From: Owenweeksia hongkongensis DSM 17368
GTDB lineage: Bacteria > Bacteroidota > Bacteroidia > Flavobacteriales > Schleiferiaceae
Assembly: GCA_945865885.1 (NCBI GenBank)
Contig: CAMBEZ010000007.1
Span: 1 to 64,000 of the forward strand
Direction: 5' to 3'
Length of the DNA: 64,000 nt
Shown here: positions 55,885 to 63,223 of the stretch, in pieces
How the letters are laid out: every line of letters starts with the position of its first letter
Position numbering within the stretch: the stretch's first letter is position 1
Made by a program: the position numbers and the translations under genes
The notes under the pieces: model-generated
Seen by the model: only the letters and a program-made list of their open reading frames with translations
What the model was told of the DNA's origin: nothing
Database searches by the model: none

Positions 55885-57033
55885 TCACTCGTCAAAACTA
55901 ACCACCACCCGTTCGGACGTGGGCGTCGCTTGGCAGGTGAGGACGTAACCGTCGGCCACTTCTTCTTCGCTCAACGCGTAGTTCATGGCCATCTCCACGG
56001 ATCCCTCCAAAACCTTCGCGCGGCAGGTGCAGCAAACTGCGCCCTTGCAGGCATACGGCACGTCAGCACCCGCGTCCAAGGCGGCGTCCAGCACGAAATC
56101 TTTGGGGCGCATGTTGAAGTGGGTTTCCTCGCGGTCCAGGATCACCGTGGCCTGCACCGTGGCTCCTTTGTCCAGCTTGCTGGACGCTGACTTTGCCGGA
56201 GCGGCCCCGGGGGTTGCCGCGGTAAACAACTCAAAGTGAACGCGTTCTTTGGGCACGCCCAAGCCCACCAAGGCGTCGGTAACGCCGTGGATCATGGGTT
56301 CCGGGCCGCACAAATAAAAGGCGCGTGCAGACGTGAGTGCGGGAAAGCGCTCCGCAAAAAGCTCCACGCGGTCCCGGTCAATGCGGCCCTTGAGGGCGTC
56401 TGCCCCCTGGTCTTCCCGGCTCAACACGTGGTGCACTTCCAAACGGCCCAGGTACCGGTCCTTCAGGTCCTCCAACTCCTGCTTGAACAGAATGGTAGCC
56501 GTGGAGCGATTGCCGTAGTACAGGGCAAAGGTGCTCGTGGGTTCTGCTTCCAGAACCGTCGTCAAGATGCTCAGTACGGGCGTGATGCCACTTCCGGCCG
56601 CAAAACCGGCGTAGTGCGCCGTGCGGGAACCGTCGGGGTCAAAAACAAACCCTCCCTGCGGGGGCATGGTTTCCAAGGTGGTTCCTGCGGCCAAAACCGT
56701 GTTGGCCCAGGTGCTGAACACGCCGTTTTCCACCTGCTTGATGGCCACGCGCAATTCCCCGCTCAACGGGCTGGAGCACAGCGAATAAGACCGACGAACT
56801 TCCGTGCCGTCGATGGTGGTGCGAAAGGTTAGGTACTGGCCCGCGCGAAAACGGAACAGCTCCCGAAGCTCCTCCGGCAGCGCAAACGCTACAGAAACGG
56901 AGTCCGACGTCTCGCGGCGCACCTCGGCCACGTTTAGGGGCTGAAACTTGGGCGCGCCTCGCCCTTTTTGGACTTCTGCGGTGGTGGATAGGCCGGGCAG
57001 CTGCTCGGCTTTTTTCTTGAAAAATCCCAACAT
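55885..57033 (-). CDS. paaE: Phenylacetyl-CoA epoxidase reductase subunit PaaE
   Basis: 382 residues. It passes electrons from NADPH to the PaaABC epoxidase. Seen: FAD domain (RRSYSLCSSPLSGELRVAIK), NAD(P) domain (GSGITPVLSILTTVL, YLCGPEPMIHGV) and a C-terminal plant-type [2Fe-2S] ferredoxin (CKGAVCCTCRAKVLEG, with the fourth Cys in LTCQA). The ATG at 57033 is chosen; an upstream ATG adds an unlikely extension. It is the only paa gene on the minus strand, divergent from paaA with 107 bp between. Confidence 0.93.
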   Translation of the reverse strand: MLGFFKKKAEQLPGLSTTAEVQKGRGAPKFQPLNVAEVRRETSDSVSVAFALPEELRELFRFRAGQYLTFRTTIDGTEVRRSYSLCSSPLSGELRVAIKQVENGVFSTWANTVLAAGTTLETMPPQGGFVFDPDGSRTAHYAGFAAGSGITPVLSILTTVLEAEPTSTFALYYGNRSTATILFKQELEDLKDRYLGRLEVHHVLSREDQGADALKGRIDRDRVELFAERFPALTSARAFYLCGPEPMIHGVTDALVGLGVPKERVHFELFTAATPGAAPAKSASSKLDKGATVQATVILDREETHFNMRPKDFVLDAALDAGADVPYACKGAVCCTCRAKVLEGSVEMAMNYALSEEEVADGYVLTCQATPTSERVVVSFDE

Positions 57034-57140
57034 AAACTTATGCGTGCTAAACTCGTTGTAAAGGCAGAACAACAAAGGTAACGCAGCGCGGTGCGCGTTG
57101 GTTCCTTTCGTAAACTTGCAGTATCAGAAATCAAGGCCCC

Positions 57141-58106
57141 ATGGGAGAAGAAATTTCACTCGAACACCGGTTCCAAGCTTATGTTGACGCAGACAACAAG
57201 GTGGAGCCGAAGGACTGGATGCCGGAGAAGTACCGAAAAACCATGATTCGGCAAATTTCCCAGCACGCCCACTCGGAAGTGGTGGGCATGTTGCCGGAAG
57301 CCAACTGGATCACGCGGGCTCCCAGCCTGCGGTCCAAGTTGATCTTGTTGGCCAAAGTTCAGGACGAAGGCGGTCACGGCTTGTACCTCTACAGCGCCGC
57401 AGAAACCTTGGGCATTTCCCGCGAGGAATTGCTGGACGATTTATTGGCCGGACGCGCCAAGTACTCCAGCATCTTCAACTACCCCACCTTGAGTTGGGCA
57501 GACATGGGTGCCGTGGGTTGGTTGGTGGACGGAGCCGCCATTGCCAACCAAGTCATGTTGTGCCGCACCTCCTACGGGCCCTACGCCCGCGCCATGGTGC
57601 GCATTTGCAAAGAGGAATCCTTTCACCAGCGCCAAGGGTACGAGATCATGATGCACTTGGCCGCGGGCACGCCCGAACAAAAGGCCATGGCGCAAGACGC
57701 CCTAAACCGCTGGTGGTGGCCTTCGCTGATGATGTTTGGCCCGCCGGACGATCAGTCGCCCAACACCGCCCAGTCCATGGCTTGGCGCATCAAGCGCAAA
57801 ACAAACGACGAACTGCGTCAGGAATTTGTAGACAAAACCGTTCCGCAAGTGGAGTTCTTGGGCCTCAACGTGCCCGATTCCCACCTGAAGTGGAACGAAG
57901 CCCGCGAACACTACGACTTTGGCCCCATCGATTGGGAAGAGTTTTTCCAAGTTGTAGGCGGCAACGGTCCGTGCAACAAGGAGCGCCTGGCCGCCCGCCA
58001 AAAAGCCCACGACGATGGGATGTGGGTGCGTGAGGCCGCCCTGGCACACGCCAAAAAACGTGCCGCTGCCTCGGCGTCCAACGCCCTTAAAACCAGCGCC
58101 GCATGA
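57141..58106 (+). CDS. paaA: Phenylacetyl-CoA epoxidase catalytic subunit PaaA
   Basis: 321 residues, the di-iron subunit that epoxidises the aromatic ring of phenylacetyl-CoA. Iron-ligand motifs: [23 protein letters not shown] and [12 protein letters not shown]. Size and wording match PaaA. A TAAACTTG box lies upstream of the ATG. The stop overlaps paaB by ATGA. Likely regulated by phenylacetyl-CoA, but no PaaX/PaaR-type repressor is in view. Confidence 0.96.
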
Positions 58107-58396
58107 GCCAAAGTCCCGATGCCTGGCCGTTGTGGGAGGTCTTTGTGCGCAGCAAAAACGGATTGGCCCACAAGCACTCCGGCAGTCTGCACGCCCCCGA
58201 CGCCGAAACTGCACTCAAAAGTGCGCGCGATGTGTACACGCGTCGGTCCGAAGGAGTCTCCATTTGGGTGATTCCCTCCAGCGCCGTAGTGGCCTCCTCC
58301 CCAGACGAGCGCGAACCACTGTTTGCCCCTTCCGACGACAAACCGTACCGCCATCCCACCTTCTACGACATTCCCGATGAAGTGGGCCACATGTGA
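58103..58396 (+). CDS. paaB: Phenylacetyl-CoA epoxidase subunit PaaB
   Basis: 97 residues, a small structural subunit that bridges PaaAC heterotetramers. Seen: [20 protein letters not shown] at the N-terminus and NARDVYTRR-type [19 protein letters not shown]. Ends [10 protein letters not shown]. The ATGA overlap with paaA couples its synthesis. Confidence 0.94.
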
Positions 58397-59135
58397 TTTA
58401 GCCGACTATGCCCTGCGCAAGGCAGACGACACCCTCGTATTGGGGCAGCGTCTGTCCGAGTGGTGCGGTCACGGGCCGGTTCTGGAGCAGGACATCGCCC
58501 TCACCAACGTTGCGCTGGACCTCATTGGCCAAGCACGGGGGTACTACCAAATGGCTGCCGCCTGGCGGGCCGACGGTTCCACGGAAGACGACTTGGCGTA
58601 CCGTCGCGATGCCCATCTGTATGGCAATCACCTGTTGGTGGAATTGCCCAATGGCCACTGGGGCGACACCCTAGCGCGCCAATTTTTCTTTGACGCCTAC
58701 AACTTCTTCTTGCTGGAGCAGCTATCCAAGAGCCCCGTTCCGGAACTCTCCGCACTGGCTCAAAAAGCCTACAAAGAGGTGAGCTACCACGCGCAGTTCA
58801 GCGCGGAGTGGATCATTCGCTTGGGCGACGGCACGGACGAGTCCCACACCAAAATTCAGCAAAGCGTCAATCGCCTGTGGGCCTACACGGGCGAACTGTT
58901 TGAAGACACGGATCTGGACCGCAAGTTGGACGGTGCGGTACCCTTGCCCAGCACGTTTCGCGCGGATTGGTTGCAAAAAATGCGTGAGGTATTCGCCTTG
59001 GCTACCTTGGAACTGCCGGACCCCAACGCCTACATGCAAAAAGGCGGGCTGCACGGCCGGCACACGGAACACTTGGGGTACATCTTGGCGGAAATGCAGT
59101 ACCTGCCCCGGGCCTACCCGGACGCCAAATGGTAA
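58377..59135 (+). CDS. paaC: Phenylacetyl-CoA epoxidase structural subunit PaaC
   Basis: 252 residues, the ferritin-like non-catalytic partner of PaaA. Seen: LVLGQRLSEWCGHGPVLEQD, NVALDLIGQARGYYQ, KEVSYHAQFSAEWIIRLGDG, and GLHGRHTEHLGYILAEMQY at the end, typical of PaaC. ATG 58377 overlaps paaB by 20 nt; later in-frame starts would cut the first helix. Its stop overlaps paaD by 7 nt. Confidence 0.94.
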   Translation: MKWATCDLADYALRKADDTLVLGQRLSEWCGHGPVLEQDIALTNVALDLIGQARGYYQMAAAWRADGSTEDDLAYRRDAHLYGNHLLVELPNGHWGDTLARQFFFDAYNFFLLEQLSKSPVPELSALAQKAYKEVSYHAQFSAEWIIRLGDGTDESHTKIQQSVNRLWAYTGELFEDTDLDRKLDGAVPLPSTFRADWLQKMREVFALATLELPDPNAYMQKGGLHGRHTEHLGYILAEMQYLPRAYPDAKW

Positions 59136-59626
59136 GAAACCCCGAAGATTCGGACGTTTGGAACATCTTGGAGTCCGTTTTGGACCCGGAGGTGCCTGCA
59201 GTCAGCATTGTGGAGCTGGGCATGGTTCGCTTTGTGGAGCGTGCGCCCGGCGGTAACCTGCGCGTGGGCATTTCCCCCACCTACACGGGTTGCCCCGCAA
59301 CAGACGTCATTGTGCGTTCCGCTCGCGAGGCGTTGGAAGGTGCTGGATTTGCCCACACGGAAATCCAAACGGTACTGTCTCCCCCGTGGACCACAGACTG
59401 GATCACGGAGGAAGGCAGAGCCAAGCTGGAGGCCTACGGCATTGCGCCCCCCGTGGGCAGCTCCGCAGACAAACGCTCTTTGTTTGCCCCGTCCCCTGCC
59501 GTGCGGTGCCCGCGGTGCAAGAGCCTGCACACCACCCGCGTTTCCAACTTCGGATCTACCGCGTGCAAAGCCCTCTTCCAATGCGATGACTGCCGCGAGC
59601 CATTTGATTATTTCAAGTGTTTGTAG
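59129..59626 (+). CDS. paaD: Phenylacetate degradation protein PaaD
   Basis: 165 residues. The N-terminal DUF59/MIP18 domain (LDPEVPAVSIVELGMVR, GCPATDVIV) matches Fe-S assembly helpers. The C-terminal zinc ribbon has RCPRCKSLH and FQCDDCREPF. TTDWIT near residue 90 is a typical PaaD marker. It is needed for maturation of the PaaABC complex in other bacteria. Last gene of paaABCD, followed by a hairpin. Confidence 0.93.
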   Translation: MVRNPEDSDVWNILESVLDPEVPAVSIVELGMVRFVERAPGGNLRVGISPTYTGCPATDVIVRSAREALEGAGFAHTEIQTVLSPPWTTDWITEEGRAKLEAYGIAPPVGSSADKRSLFAPSPAVRCPRCKSLHTTRVSNFGSTACKALFQCDDCREPFDYFKCL

Positions 59627-59690: not shown

Positions 59691-59726
59691 AAAAAAGCGA
59701 ACCCCGGCTGAGCGGAGCCGGGGTTC
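59691..59726 (+). terminator. Hairpin after paaD
   Basis: GAACCCCGGCT (59699-59709) and AGCCGGGGTTC (59716-59726) form a perfect 11-bp stem with a GAGCGG loop. The A run (59691-59696) precedes it but the T run is poor, so it may be a weak terminator or an RNA stability element. Confidence 0.6.
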
Positions 59727-59813
59727 TGGATTGGTTTGGTAACGAAGGGTAGAGAACCTGTTTCGTGTGATACAAAGTTGCATTATGTCGGGGCGGCTAC
59801 CTAAATAATTTGG

Positions 59814-59841
59814 GAAAATATGGGAAATTCCCGTATTTTCA
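59814..59841 (+). promoter_or_regulatory. 13-bp palindrome over the -7 region
   Basis: GAAAATATGGGAA (59814-59826), a single A, then TTCCCGTATTTTC (59828-59840) form an inverted repeat with one T-G mismatch at its seventh base. Its right arm contains the -7-like TATTTTCA (59834-59841), which ends 4 nt before the ATG at 59846. A protein bound here would block the promoter. Confidence 0.6.
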
Positions 59842-59845
59842 CATA

Positions 59846-61270
59846 ATGCGAAGCGCGCAACTCTTCCTCTACATCGGGATTTTTCTTGGGTCACAACTGG
59901 CTGTTGGGCAGCCTATTTCCGCGGGTTCTCCCCACCAACCCGGCGACATGGCCATCGTTAAAGACGGTGGGCAAGTGTACGGTCTGCAACTGGCAACCAA
60001 GAGTCGGTACCGCTGGAATCAGGACCGTTGGGTGCTGGATGGGGGCTTGAATGTTCATTTGCCCGCGAGGCGCTTGCCCTTCATGCACAAATCGCAAGCC
60101 CTCAAAGGTTCTAACGGCCGCTGGTTCGTTCACGCGCCTGGCTTTGGGCATTTGTGGAGCTACCAAAAAGGCGTACTTACCCGTTTGGACACCACCTTTT
60201 TCGCCGGTTCTAATTTTGGGGCGGACCGATTCGTTTACCACGACACCGTTTATTCCCAGGGGGGCTATGGATTTTGGTTGTACCACGGAATCATCAGTTA
60301 CTTCGACCCCCGTTTTAAAGAATGGGAGCGGTTGATTACCATGGGGCACGAAAGTCCTGTTTTGCCCAATCCCATTGCCGCGTATGCCGGAAATGGGGTG
60401 CGTTGGTTTTGGGCGGTTTCCAGTTATCCCGAACAAGGGGGGAGCCAATTGTTTGAACCGGACGGAACCGTCTACGCTTTGGATTTGCAGAATCGCGAAA
60501 TAACGCCCATCGGACAAGTGCGCAGGGCCATTTGGCGGGAAATCGGTAAGCCCATCGCCATCTGGGACAGTGTGGTGCTGACCTCCGGCACAAACGGTGG
60601 TTTGTTGGTGAACATGGCCAAGAACGAAGTGCGACGAATCCCCTCAGACATCATGTACGGCAATGCGCTAGGGACCATGGACGCTTGGGGCGCTGGGTGT
60701 GTAGCTCTGGACGATACGCTTGAAGTATTCACTACCAAGGACCGAGCGCGTTCCAACATCCTGGTGCACAACCAGTATGCATTGCGCGATTTGTGGGAAC
60801 AGTCGGAACCGTTGGGGGCGTTTGTGGAGCCCAAATGGATGAACGCTTTAAAGCGGAACTATTGGCTTCCTTTGTTGACGCTGCTCATCAGCATGGGTGC
60901 TTGGTTGTTGGGGCGGTTTCGGTCCGTTCGTCCGATGGGACCTACAGCCTTCGCCCGAGAACTGGATTTGTACGAGCGCAAATTGTTGTTGCCCTTGCTG
61001 CTGGAGGGTCCGGGCCGAAAATGGACCTCGCACGAGCTGGATGAGCTTTTGGAAACGTCGGACAAGTCCTGGGACAACCAGCGCAAGATTCGAAAAACAA
61101 CCATCAACGATCTGAACCGCAAAGCATTGCTTCATTTGGAGCTATCCTTGCTCATTTCCGACGAACGCGATGCGGAAGACCGTCGGGAAAAGCGGTACTT
61201 TGTGGTGCCGGAGGTCCTGCCGTTTCGACGCGATCTGGTGGACCTACTCCAACAACCGGCAAACTTTTGA
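59846..61270 (+). CDS. Predicted membrane-anchored protein with periplasmic propeller and cytoplasmic winged-helix-like domain
   Basis: 474 residues, start ATG 59846 (MRSAQLFLYIGIFLGSQL, a signal peptide or anchor). Residues about 25-330 form an Asp/Gly/Trp-rich beta domain with propeller-like strands, including YSQGGYGFWLYHG and GGSQLFEPDGTVYALDL. A single membrane helix follows at about 338-358 (YWLPLLTLLISMGAWLLG). The C-terminal 110 residues are helical and charged (FARELDLYERKLLLPLLLEG, then KIRKTTINDLNRKALL) and look like a winged-helix domain, but no known family is recognised. Hypothesis: a membrane-bound regulator. It lies between paaD and paaG, with paaG 17 nt after its stop. Alternatives: a cell-envelope sensor or a protein of unrelated function. 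DNA binding is not proven. Confidence 0.6.
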   Translation: MRSAQLFLYIGIFLGSQLAVGQPISAGSPHQPGDMAIVKDGGQVYGLQLATKSRYRWNQDRWVLDGGLNVHLPARRLPFMHKSQALKGSNGRWFVHAPGFGHLWSYQKGVLTRLDTTFFAGSNFGADRFVYHDTVYSQGGYGFWLYHGIISYFDPRFKEWERLITMGHESPVLPNPIAAYAGNGVRWFWAVSSYPEQGGSQLFEPDGTVYALDLQNREITPIGQVRRAIWREIGKPIAIWDSVVLTSGTNGGLLVNMAKNEVRRIPSDIMYGNALGTMDAWGAGCVALDDTLEVFTTKDRARSNILVHNQYALRDLWEQSEPLGAFVEPKWMNALKRNYWLPLLTLLISMGAWLLGRFRSVRPMGPTAFARELDLYERKLLLPLLLEGPGRKWTSHELDELLETSDKSWDNQRKIRKTTINDLNRKALLHLELSLLISDERDAEDRREKRYFVVPEVLPFRRDLVDLLQQPANF

Positions 61271-61287
61271 CGAAAACGCAACGATTC

Positions 61288-62067
61288 ATGAACCAACCCA
61301 TTGACGTCCAACACCTCGACGGTGTGTGCCTCATTACCTTAAACCGCCCGGACAAGTTCAACAGCTTCAACCGGGAGCAGGCCCTGGCGCTGCAAGAGGC
61401 CCTGCGCGCAGCCAACGAAGACCCCGCCGCGCGCTGCGTCTTGCTGACGGGTGGCGGCAAGGCCTTTTGTGCCGGACAGGATTTGGGGGAAGCCATTGAT
61501 CCCGCCGGACCCGGAATGCGCACCATTTTGACCGAGCACTACAATCCCTTGGTGCTGCAAATTCGCGCTTTGAGCAAGCCCGTAGTGGCCGCCGTCAACG
61601 GAGTTGCTGCTGGAGCAGGAGCCAGTTTGGCTTTGGTGTGCGACGTGGTGGTGGCGTCGGATAAGGCATCGTTTGTGCAGGCGTTTACCAGTATTGGCTT
61701 GATTCCGGATTCGGGAGGCACGCTGACGTTGCCGCGCTTGATCGGTTTTGGTCGGGCCAGTGCCACCATGCTTCTGGGGGACCGGATGACGGCGCAAGAC
61801 GCCCTCGCTGCGGGAATGGTCTATCGGGTATTTCCGGCCGACTCCTTCGCGGAAGATGCGTTGAACGTAGCGCGCGAGTTGGCCCAGCGGCCCACGCGGG
61901 CACTCGCTTTGGTCAAGGAAGCGCTCAACGCTTCTGTATTTGCCAACCTGGAGGCCCAGCTGCATACGGAGTTGCATTTGCAATTGGCAGCAGCAGAAAC
62001 CGACGACTTCAAGGAGGGCGTTGCGGCATTTCTGGAAAAAAGAACCCCAAATTTTCGCGGACACTAA
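61288..62067 (+). CDS. paaG: Enoyl-CoA hydratase/isomerase, probable PaaG
   Basis: 259 residues of the crotonase fold. [16 protein letters not shown] forms the oxyanion-hole region, and [22 protein letters not shown] is the second strand-turn. [19 protein letters not shown] carries the PaaG-like Asp in place of one of the hydratase Glu residues. PaaG isomerises ring-1,2-epoxyphenylacetyl-CoA to the oxepin. Context in the paa locus supports this, though a generic enoyl-CoA hydratase cannot be excluded. The ATG at 61288 is preferred over a TTG at 61267. Confidence 0.87.
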
Positions 62068-62080
62068 CCGTTCCCCCCAC

Positions 62081-63223
62081 ATGAAAGTAATCGTAATAGG
62101 AGCCGGCGCCATGGGGTCCGGCATCGCTCAAGTTTTGGCCCAAGCAGGCGAGTCTGTGGTGGTGTACGACACCAAGCCGGAAATGCTGACGAAGTCGGCC
62201 CAACGGCTGGCTCAGACGTTGGAAACCCTGGTTGCCAAGGGGAAATTCACCCAAATTCAGGCCGACGCCCTCCACGAACGCATCCACTTCAGCGACAACC
62301 TGCGGGACGGCGAAGGTTCCGAATTGGCGATTGAGGCCATTTACGAAAACCTGGAGGCCAAGCGTTCGGTGTTCCGAATTCTGGACGATTTGTTGCCGGA
62401 AACCGCTGTTTTGGCCTCCAACACCAGCTCGTTGAGCATCGCCTCGTTGGCTTCTGGTATTCATCGGCCCGAACGCGTGGTGGGCTTGCACTTTTTCAAC
62501 CCCGCACCGCTGATGCCGTTGGTGGAGGTGGTGCCCTGCCTGACTACCGCGCCCAAAACGGTGGAGCGCTGTTTGGCATGGGTTGCCGGGTGGAAGAAGA
62601 CGGGAGTAGTGGCGCAAGACACGCCCGGTTTCATCGTCAACCGAGTGGCGCGTCCGTACTACGGTGAGGCCCTTCACATGGAAGAAACCCAGGTGGCGGA
62701 TCGCGCTACCATTGATTGGGCCCTAACAACCCACGGCGGATTCAAAATGGGCCCGTTCGCCCTGATGGACCTCATTGGGCACGACATCAACTACACGGTG
62801 ACGGAAACCGTTTGGAAGCAGTTCTACTACGATCCGCGCTTCCGTCCCTCCTTGGCGCAGAAACGTTTAGTGGAGGCTGGATTGCTGGGCCGCAAGACCG
62901 GTCGTGGGTTTTACGATTACCGCGAAGGGGCCGTCCAGCCGGCGCCAAACGAAGATGCTGCCTTGGCGCGAACGGTGGTCAACCGCACGTGGGCGTTGAT
63001 CATCAACGAAGCCTACGACGCTTTGTACCGAGGAGTAGCTAATGCAGAAGCAATTGACACGGCCATGAAACTGGGCGTGAACTACCCGATGGGGCCCTTT
63101 GAAAAGGCCGAACAATGGGGTTTGCACGAGGTCGTTGCCGTTTTGGACGGCATGGTGGCCGAGACCGGCGATCCGCGGTACCGCGTTTGTCCGCTTTTGC
63201 GACGGGAAGCTGGAAGCAACTGA
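62081..63223 (+). CDS. paaH: 3-hydroxyacyl-CoA dehydrogenase, probable PaaH
   Basis: 380 residues. NAD loop [19 protein letters not shown], catalytic His in [19 protein letters not shown], and [11 protein letters not shown] in between. A second copy of the C-terminal helical domain ([19 protein letters not shown]) follows the first ([19 protein letters not shown]). In phenylacetate breakdown PaaH oxidises the 3-hydroxyadipyl-CoA intermediate. It starts 13 nt after paaG. Nothing but context separates it from a general beta-oxidation enzyme. Confidence 0.87.

Follow-up and report, generated by a model that had tools for sequence, protein, structure and literature searches.

The window, meaning the whole 64,000-nt stretch of Owenweeksia hongkongensis DSM 17368 DNA analyzed here, contains a phenylacetate (paa) degradation locus. 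The divergent gene paaE (55885-57075, minus strand) and the upstream operon paaA, paaB, paaC, and paaD (57141-59626, plus strand) encode proteins that all scored above the NCBIfam cut-offs. A GC-rich terminator-like hairpin lies 3' of paaD (59698-59727). It recurs at the same place in many paa loci and likely insulates the next operon from paaABCD. The following plus-strand ORF, with its ATG at 59846 and its stop codon ending at 61270, is intact and encodes the 474-aa candidate regulator. Its downstream neighbor is a paaG-like enoyl-CoA isomerase gene (61288-62067, plus strand), which begins 17 bp past the regulator stop codon and is followed by a paaH-like 3-hydroxyacyl-CoA dehydrogenase gene (62081-63223, plus strand); both are presumed to belong to the same operon. 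PaaG and PaaH were the nearest NCBIfam models for these two products, but the scores were below the respective cut-offs. At the 10 loci examined, the ends of the regulator and paaG genes either overlapped or were at most 17 bp apart. In many genera, the lower paa operon also encodes a conserved protein (about 166 aa) that matched neither Pfam nor NCBIfam; its gene usually lies between those for paaH and paaI (L019:5329-5831, minus strand; L090, L094, L095, L102, L104-L107, L129, L130, L135, L140, and L141).

The candidate regulator gene is present as a single copy in this 1.8-Mb, 94% complete genome, and its position between paaD and paaG was supported by orthologues. The protein is 90% identical to that of one congener and 36% identical to that of another, and orthologues with 27-30% identity occupy equivalent paa positions in other genera. 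Searches of the 474-aa sequence against Pfam, NCBIfam, and the PDB gave no significant match, in agreement with the first-pass annotation, which had called the protein unrecognized. The same annotation had reported no ordinary PaaX, PaaR, or TetR regulator. Consistent with this, PaaX (PF07848) was not detected in the nine genomes tested from g1, the window genus, and g12, and TetR_N (PF00440) was not detected at the paa locus of the window. The only TetR of the genome is on another contig, C21.

The architecture of the protein was examined with an AlphaFold2 model of the whole chain built from 65 aligned sequences. As shown by this model (pLDDT 88.1), a hydrophobic helix at residues 2-19 is followed by a beta domain, a transmembrane (TM) helix, and a C-terminal winged helix, in that order. 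The first helix falls within a predicted signal peptide (residues 1-22, 59846-59911). Residues 340-358 (60863-60919) form a single TM helix, and a hydrophobic stretch at this position is conserved among relatives. The signal or anchor and the TM helix had both been proposed from the sequence, as had a large periplasmic beta domain. This last proposal stood, and the domain can now be named a Kelch beta-propeller (residues 36-324, 59951-60817). In the window protein, the assignment comes from structure, as Foldseek of the whole model returned Kelch propellers with a best E of 3.4e-9; in relatives, it comes from Pfam as well, with weak to moderate Kelch matches in 38 of 65 family members. The propeller has the family signature D-x-T...G-x-N-F...S-x-GGYGFW...EW. 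From the signal peptide and the single TM helix, the predicted topology is an external propeller and an internal winged helix.

The C-terminal 113 residues were then modeled alone (pLDDT 92.7, pTM 0.86). The winged helix, which had been suspected earlier, was recovered at residues 375-468 (60968-61249), and all 50 best PDB matches in Foldseek were MarR-family regulators, including BpsR, MepR, AbfR, MexR, ZitR, PcaV, and HosA. The match values ranged from E 7e-3 to 4e-2, with TM scores of 0.45-0.57 and Foldseek probabilities of 0.96-1.00. At the sequence level, the MarR models of Pfam and NCBIfam did not match this member, and the family profile reached one MarR chain across the whole domain only at E 0.095. 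The wing has a D-x-R motif that is invariant in the family and also typical of MarR wings. The predicted recognition helix spans residues 409-422 (61070-61111) and has the motif DNQRKIR. These results suggest a DNA-binding role for the cytoplasmic domain, based on a MarR-like fold for which E was not below 7e-3.

We next describe the promoter of this gene. The 13-bp palindrome reported earlier is present at 59814-59840 as the inverted repeat GAAAATATGGGAA-A-TTCCCGTATTTTC, with 13-bp arms, one mismatched pair, and a 1-nt spacer. Its 21-bp core had no second occurrence in the 1.8-Mb genome with up to three mismatches allowed. Phylogenetic footprinting of paa-linked promoters placed the palindrome at the center of a longer predicted operator (59812-59842) with four boxes, GGGA at 59812, GGGA at 59822, TCCC at 59829, and TCAC at 59839. 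The window operator thus reads GGGA-N6-GGGA-N3-TCCC-N6-TCAC, that of the congener G001 reads GTGA-N6-GTGA-N3-TCCC-N6-TCAC, and that of g12 reads GTGA-N6-GTGA-N13-TCAC-N6-TCAC. Boxes of the same pair are 10 bp apart, which is one helical turn, and the inner spacings of g1 and g12 differ by exactly 10 bp. In 14 g12 sites, the half-site positions held 1.95 bits of information vs. 0.96 elsewhere. The palindrome had been said to overlap the -7 box; we found that TAATTTG at 59806-59812, a sequence close to the -7 box of Bacteroidota, ends at the first operator base, which makes it a candidate promoter touching the operator. The operator ends 3-4 bp 5' of the start codon in the paa members (3 bp in the window). 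Because the operator abuts the start codon, autorepression is suggested in these members. The regulator promoter of g9 keeps a TATTTTCAC right arm.

Inverted arms that abut a start codon could also form a leader RNA hairpin, acting as an attenuator or in translational control, instead of a DNA operator. This reading is highly improbable, as base pairing across the arms is frequently disrupted and the 10-bp direct repeats persist. In the window itself, the left outer box GGGA no longer pairs with TCAC and the direct repeat is intact, and the full arms would leave a loop of only 1 nt. The element had no Rfam match, and in Sphingobacteria it is separated from the ORF start by tens of bases.

The occurrence of the operator was determined across genomes. 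Each of the three g1 genomes (G000, G001, and G002) has one exact copy of the operator, located at the regulator. In g12, it was exact at the regulator in 12 genomes and had one mismatch in two more, and the reversed-pattern control gave no matches in g12 genomes. Orthologous promoters thus have the site in all three g1 genomes and at the majority of paa loci in g12. Among the g12 genomes that lacked a match at the regulator are G071 and G087, which have paa but no regulator, and G073 and G086, which have only a distant member. G075 had no match at all, G078 carries a 1-bp insertion, and the regulator gene of G079 is split. Two 2-mismatch matches in the g12 scan (G013 and G088) look like chance, and further genomic targets in g1 were rejected, since 2-mismatch matches were no more common than in the reversed-pattern control.

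When the regulator loci of g1 and g12 with intact genes were scanned with a position weight matrix (PWM), the four-box operator had the top score in every one. A search for the palindrome upstream of paaA and paaE had been suggested. No operator was found at either promoter in the site scan, and the other sites in the paa loci scored within background. These results indicate that the likely target is only the operon of the regulator itself, because no such site is present at the paaA/paaE promoter.

A PWM trained on g12 sites only was applied across families with 1046 control promoters. Upstream of the homologues of Sphingobacteriaceae (L149, L153, and L154) and Arcicella (L163), the scores were 17.6-19.3, and the score at L151 was 14.3, equal to the best of the 1046 controls (14.3). 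None of these five homologues is in a paa cluster, and homologues of Sphingobacteria and Flavobacterium that lie away from paa loci have these boxes upstream as well. When four boxes were required and one mismatch was allowed, 22 of 128 members matched, with duplicate records included. Among 1089 controls, there were three matches, and all were regulator promoters, one in a masked copy, one in a truncated copy, and one shared with a divergent neighbor, so the pattern was absent from the approximately 1086 genuine control promoters. Shuffled sequences gave one match in 2560. The exact four-box element occurred once in each of five sphingobacterial genomes, and at L149 and L154, it lies about 50-70 bp before the ORF.

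We also compared the operator with the recognition helix in a co-variation set of 120 non-redundant members. GTGA boxes were found in 21 of the 28 members with the NQ recognition-helix motif and in none of the 91 members without it, three of which are truncated at the helix. The remaining member, L165, has the boxes and a truncated sequence that stops short of the helix. Seven NQ members are exceptions, namely the window member and a close relative with GGGA boxes, three g9 members with GCGA-like boxes, L163 with two mismatches, and L155. The boxes recur outside paa loci and are confined to members with a single recognition-helix sequence, so the site tracks the protein and not the pathway. 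The co-variation of helix and operator in part reflects shared ancestry.

Other helix classes have promoter elements of their own. AAAAAANTGCATTTTT was present in the promoters of 18 of 21 SQRQF-class members (for example, L161, L173, and L204), TAGGTTATTTCTTATYT in 12 of 18 LQKKV-class members (for example, L179 and L195), and AACATATKTGTAACRTG in 11 of 15 VQRR-class members; all three were rare in controls. These elements are weaker evidence because they were picked by eye in the same sets. Taken with the helix classes, they suggest family-wide autoregulation through class-specific sites.

The binding of the membrane protein to the four-box site is a prediction, and winged-helix folds can mediate protein contacts too. 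An unlinked factor might therefore bind the site and control the gene, with the membrane protein as its target and perhaps as a sensor acting through protein contact. We consider this unlikely, given that the site occurs once per genome and always at the regulator gene across separate families and unrelated contexts, and that its sequence class tracks the recognition helix of the protein itself. The autoregulation through the palindrome that was proposed in the first-pass annotation is instead supported by the conserved four-box operator at the gene of the protein.

The distribution of the family was investigated in the host family and more widely. paaA was detected in 81 of 88 host-family genomes, covering 19 of 19 genera, and a regulator homologue in 42 genomes from five genera; in 14 of the 19 genera, paaA was present and no homologue was detected. 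Since other genera keep paa without the regulator gene, the gene is dispensable for the phenylacetate pathway. Linkage of homologues to paa genes was seen in three genera. In g1 and g12, the homologue lies between paaD and paaG, and in g9, the paa cluster is rearranged and the homologue is next to paaC/paaD. Phaeocystidibacter luteus, a cultured relative, likewise has a homologue at its paa locus. In g6, it is divergent beside glnB-amtB, and the three g6 paa loci examined had no regulator homologue. Across Bacteroidia, homologues were sporadic (13 of 295 genomes; 80 loci), and most of those outside the host family were unlinked to paa. In the tree, the glnB group formed one clade (support 1.00) and g1 with g12 another (0.96); g9 was placed apart from g1 and g12, at an uncertain position. 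A paa-specific family was ruled out by the glnB-amtB branch and by the location of most Bacteroidia members elsewhere. The proposed role as a regulator of aromatic degradation is therefore probably lineage-specific.

Several features of the branches were also observed. In the g6 branch (L022, L023, L084, L087, L089, L097, L099, L101, and others), a conserved outer-membrane-like protein with no Pfam match comes next, and the promoters of this glnB-amtB branch have AACATATKTGTAACRTG in common. Some g12 genomes (L108, L109, and L110) have a distant branch with the altered recognition helix LDYSHxTR, which is located close to sugar-nucleotide and polysaccharide genes. Where genera lack the regulator in the paaD-paaG gap (L125, L128, L131, and L137), this gap is often occupied by unrelated genes, namely those for outer-membrane-like proteins, lipoproteins, a GAF-type protein, and an HTH gene pair. 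The gap looks insertion-prone for this reason.

The protein may alternatively be a true autoregulated membrane regulator whose paa position is incidental, with itself alone or an unlinked envelope function as its target. Most homologues are unlinked to paa, paaA/paaE have no operator, and the paaD-paaG gap carries unrelated genes in other genera, as this would predict. We nevertheless regard it as rather doubtful, because three genera, among them g9 with its rearranged layout, retain the regulator within the paa cluster, and because it leads paaG-paaH with overlapping or near-overlapping ends.

We favor, with a probability of roughly 0.8, an autoregulated single-pass one-component transmembrane regulator of its own operon, here regulator-paaG-paaH. 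This reading draws on the computed fold and architecture, the conserved operator, its single site per genome, and the helix co-variation, and the predicted union of sensor, TM helix, and winged helix in one chain agrees with the one-component design first proposed. In the proposed mechanism, one TM helix would connect the Kelch propeller in the periplasm to the MarR-like winged helix in the cytoplasm. Acting as at least a dimer and probably two dimers, the winged helices would bind the four GTGA/GGGA half-sites; the two half-sites of a pair are spaced by about one helical turn, and the two pairs face each other. Binding would control the promoter of the regulator and the operon that it leads, regulator-paaG-paaH, which represents the lower phenylacetate pathway. 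The default state may be repression, and a periplasmic signal sensed by the propeller, possibly aromatic-related, would lead to release or activation.

The candidate was compared with known systems. It shares the winged-helix fold with the MarR family, whose members have the D-x-R wing motif and inverted-repeat operators and are often autorepressors. It differs from them in being membrane-tethered, in having no significant sequence match, and in the absence of the long MarR dimerization helices. MarR dimers form through N- and C-terminal helices, and their ligand sits at the interface. ToxR and CadC are likewise one-component membrane-bound winged-helix regulators. Their DNA-binding domain is N-terminal and cytoplasmic and their sensor is C-terminal, an order opposite to that modeled for the candidate.

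SusR of Bacteroides has a periplasmic sensor, a TM segment, and a C-terminal cytoplasmic DNA-binding region (PMC3878776). Compared by topology, the candidate is likewise a Bacteroidota-specific membrane protein with the same predicted order, and repeated sites are phased to the DNA helix in both (PMC3878776). SusR controls starch genes through direct repeats spaced by 67 or 77 bp (PMC3878776), whereas the predicted operator of the candidate is compact and inverted, with four boxes, and lies at the promoter of its own gene. Transmembrane transcription regulators (TTRs), as described in the part of the survey considered here, combine a DNA-binding domain and at least one TM segment in one protein, are usually single-pass, and are enriched in Bacteroidota (PMC10269533). 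The candidate similarly has a DNA-binding-domain fold and TM helix 340-358 in one chain; it also has a Kelch sensor, which that part of the survey does not mention (PMC10269533). A domain-based census would probably miss it, because its DNA-binding domain has no Pfam match. Two local paa regulators are known so far, PaaX and PaaR, the latter being the usual one in Flavobacteria (PMC13186573). Their genes lie inside the paa cluster, as here, but they are soluble proteins of other families, and the candidate, which would be membrane-bound, is unrelated to them in sequence or architecture (PMC13186573). A literature search for a Kelch-TM-winged-helix regulator found no paper. These comparisons place the candidate in a new family of a known kind, transmembrane transcription regulators with SusR-like topology.

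Beyond this member, we lean toward a Bacteroidota-wide unnamed family of Kelch-TM-MarR receptors that would read periplasmic signals onto DNA. Each member would control its own promoter via a helix-matched operator and would be wired by lineage to different operons, such as the lower phenylacetate pathway, glnB-amtB, and others. Such a regulator family would probably escape domain-based censuses, and the predicted operator and recognition-helix code are directly testable. The reading of a multi-box site by a membrane-tethered winged helix becomes testable as well, as does the nature of the periplasmic signal sensed by a bacterial Kelch propeller. Tandem pairs of regulator genes, possibly encoding partner receptors, were observed at L111:8279-11040 and L120:7615-10676.
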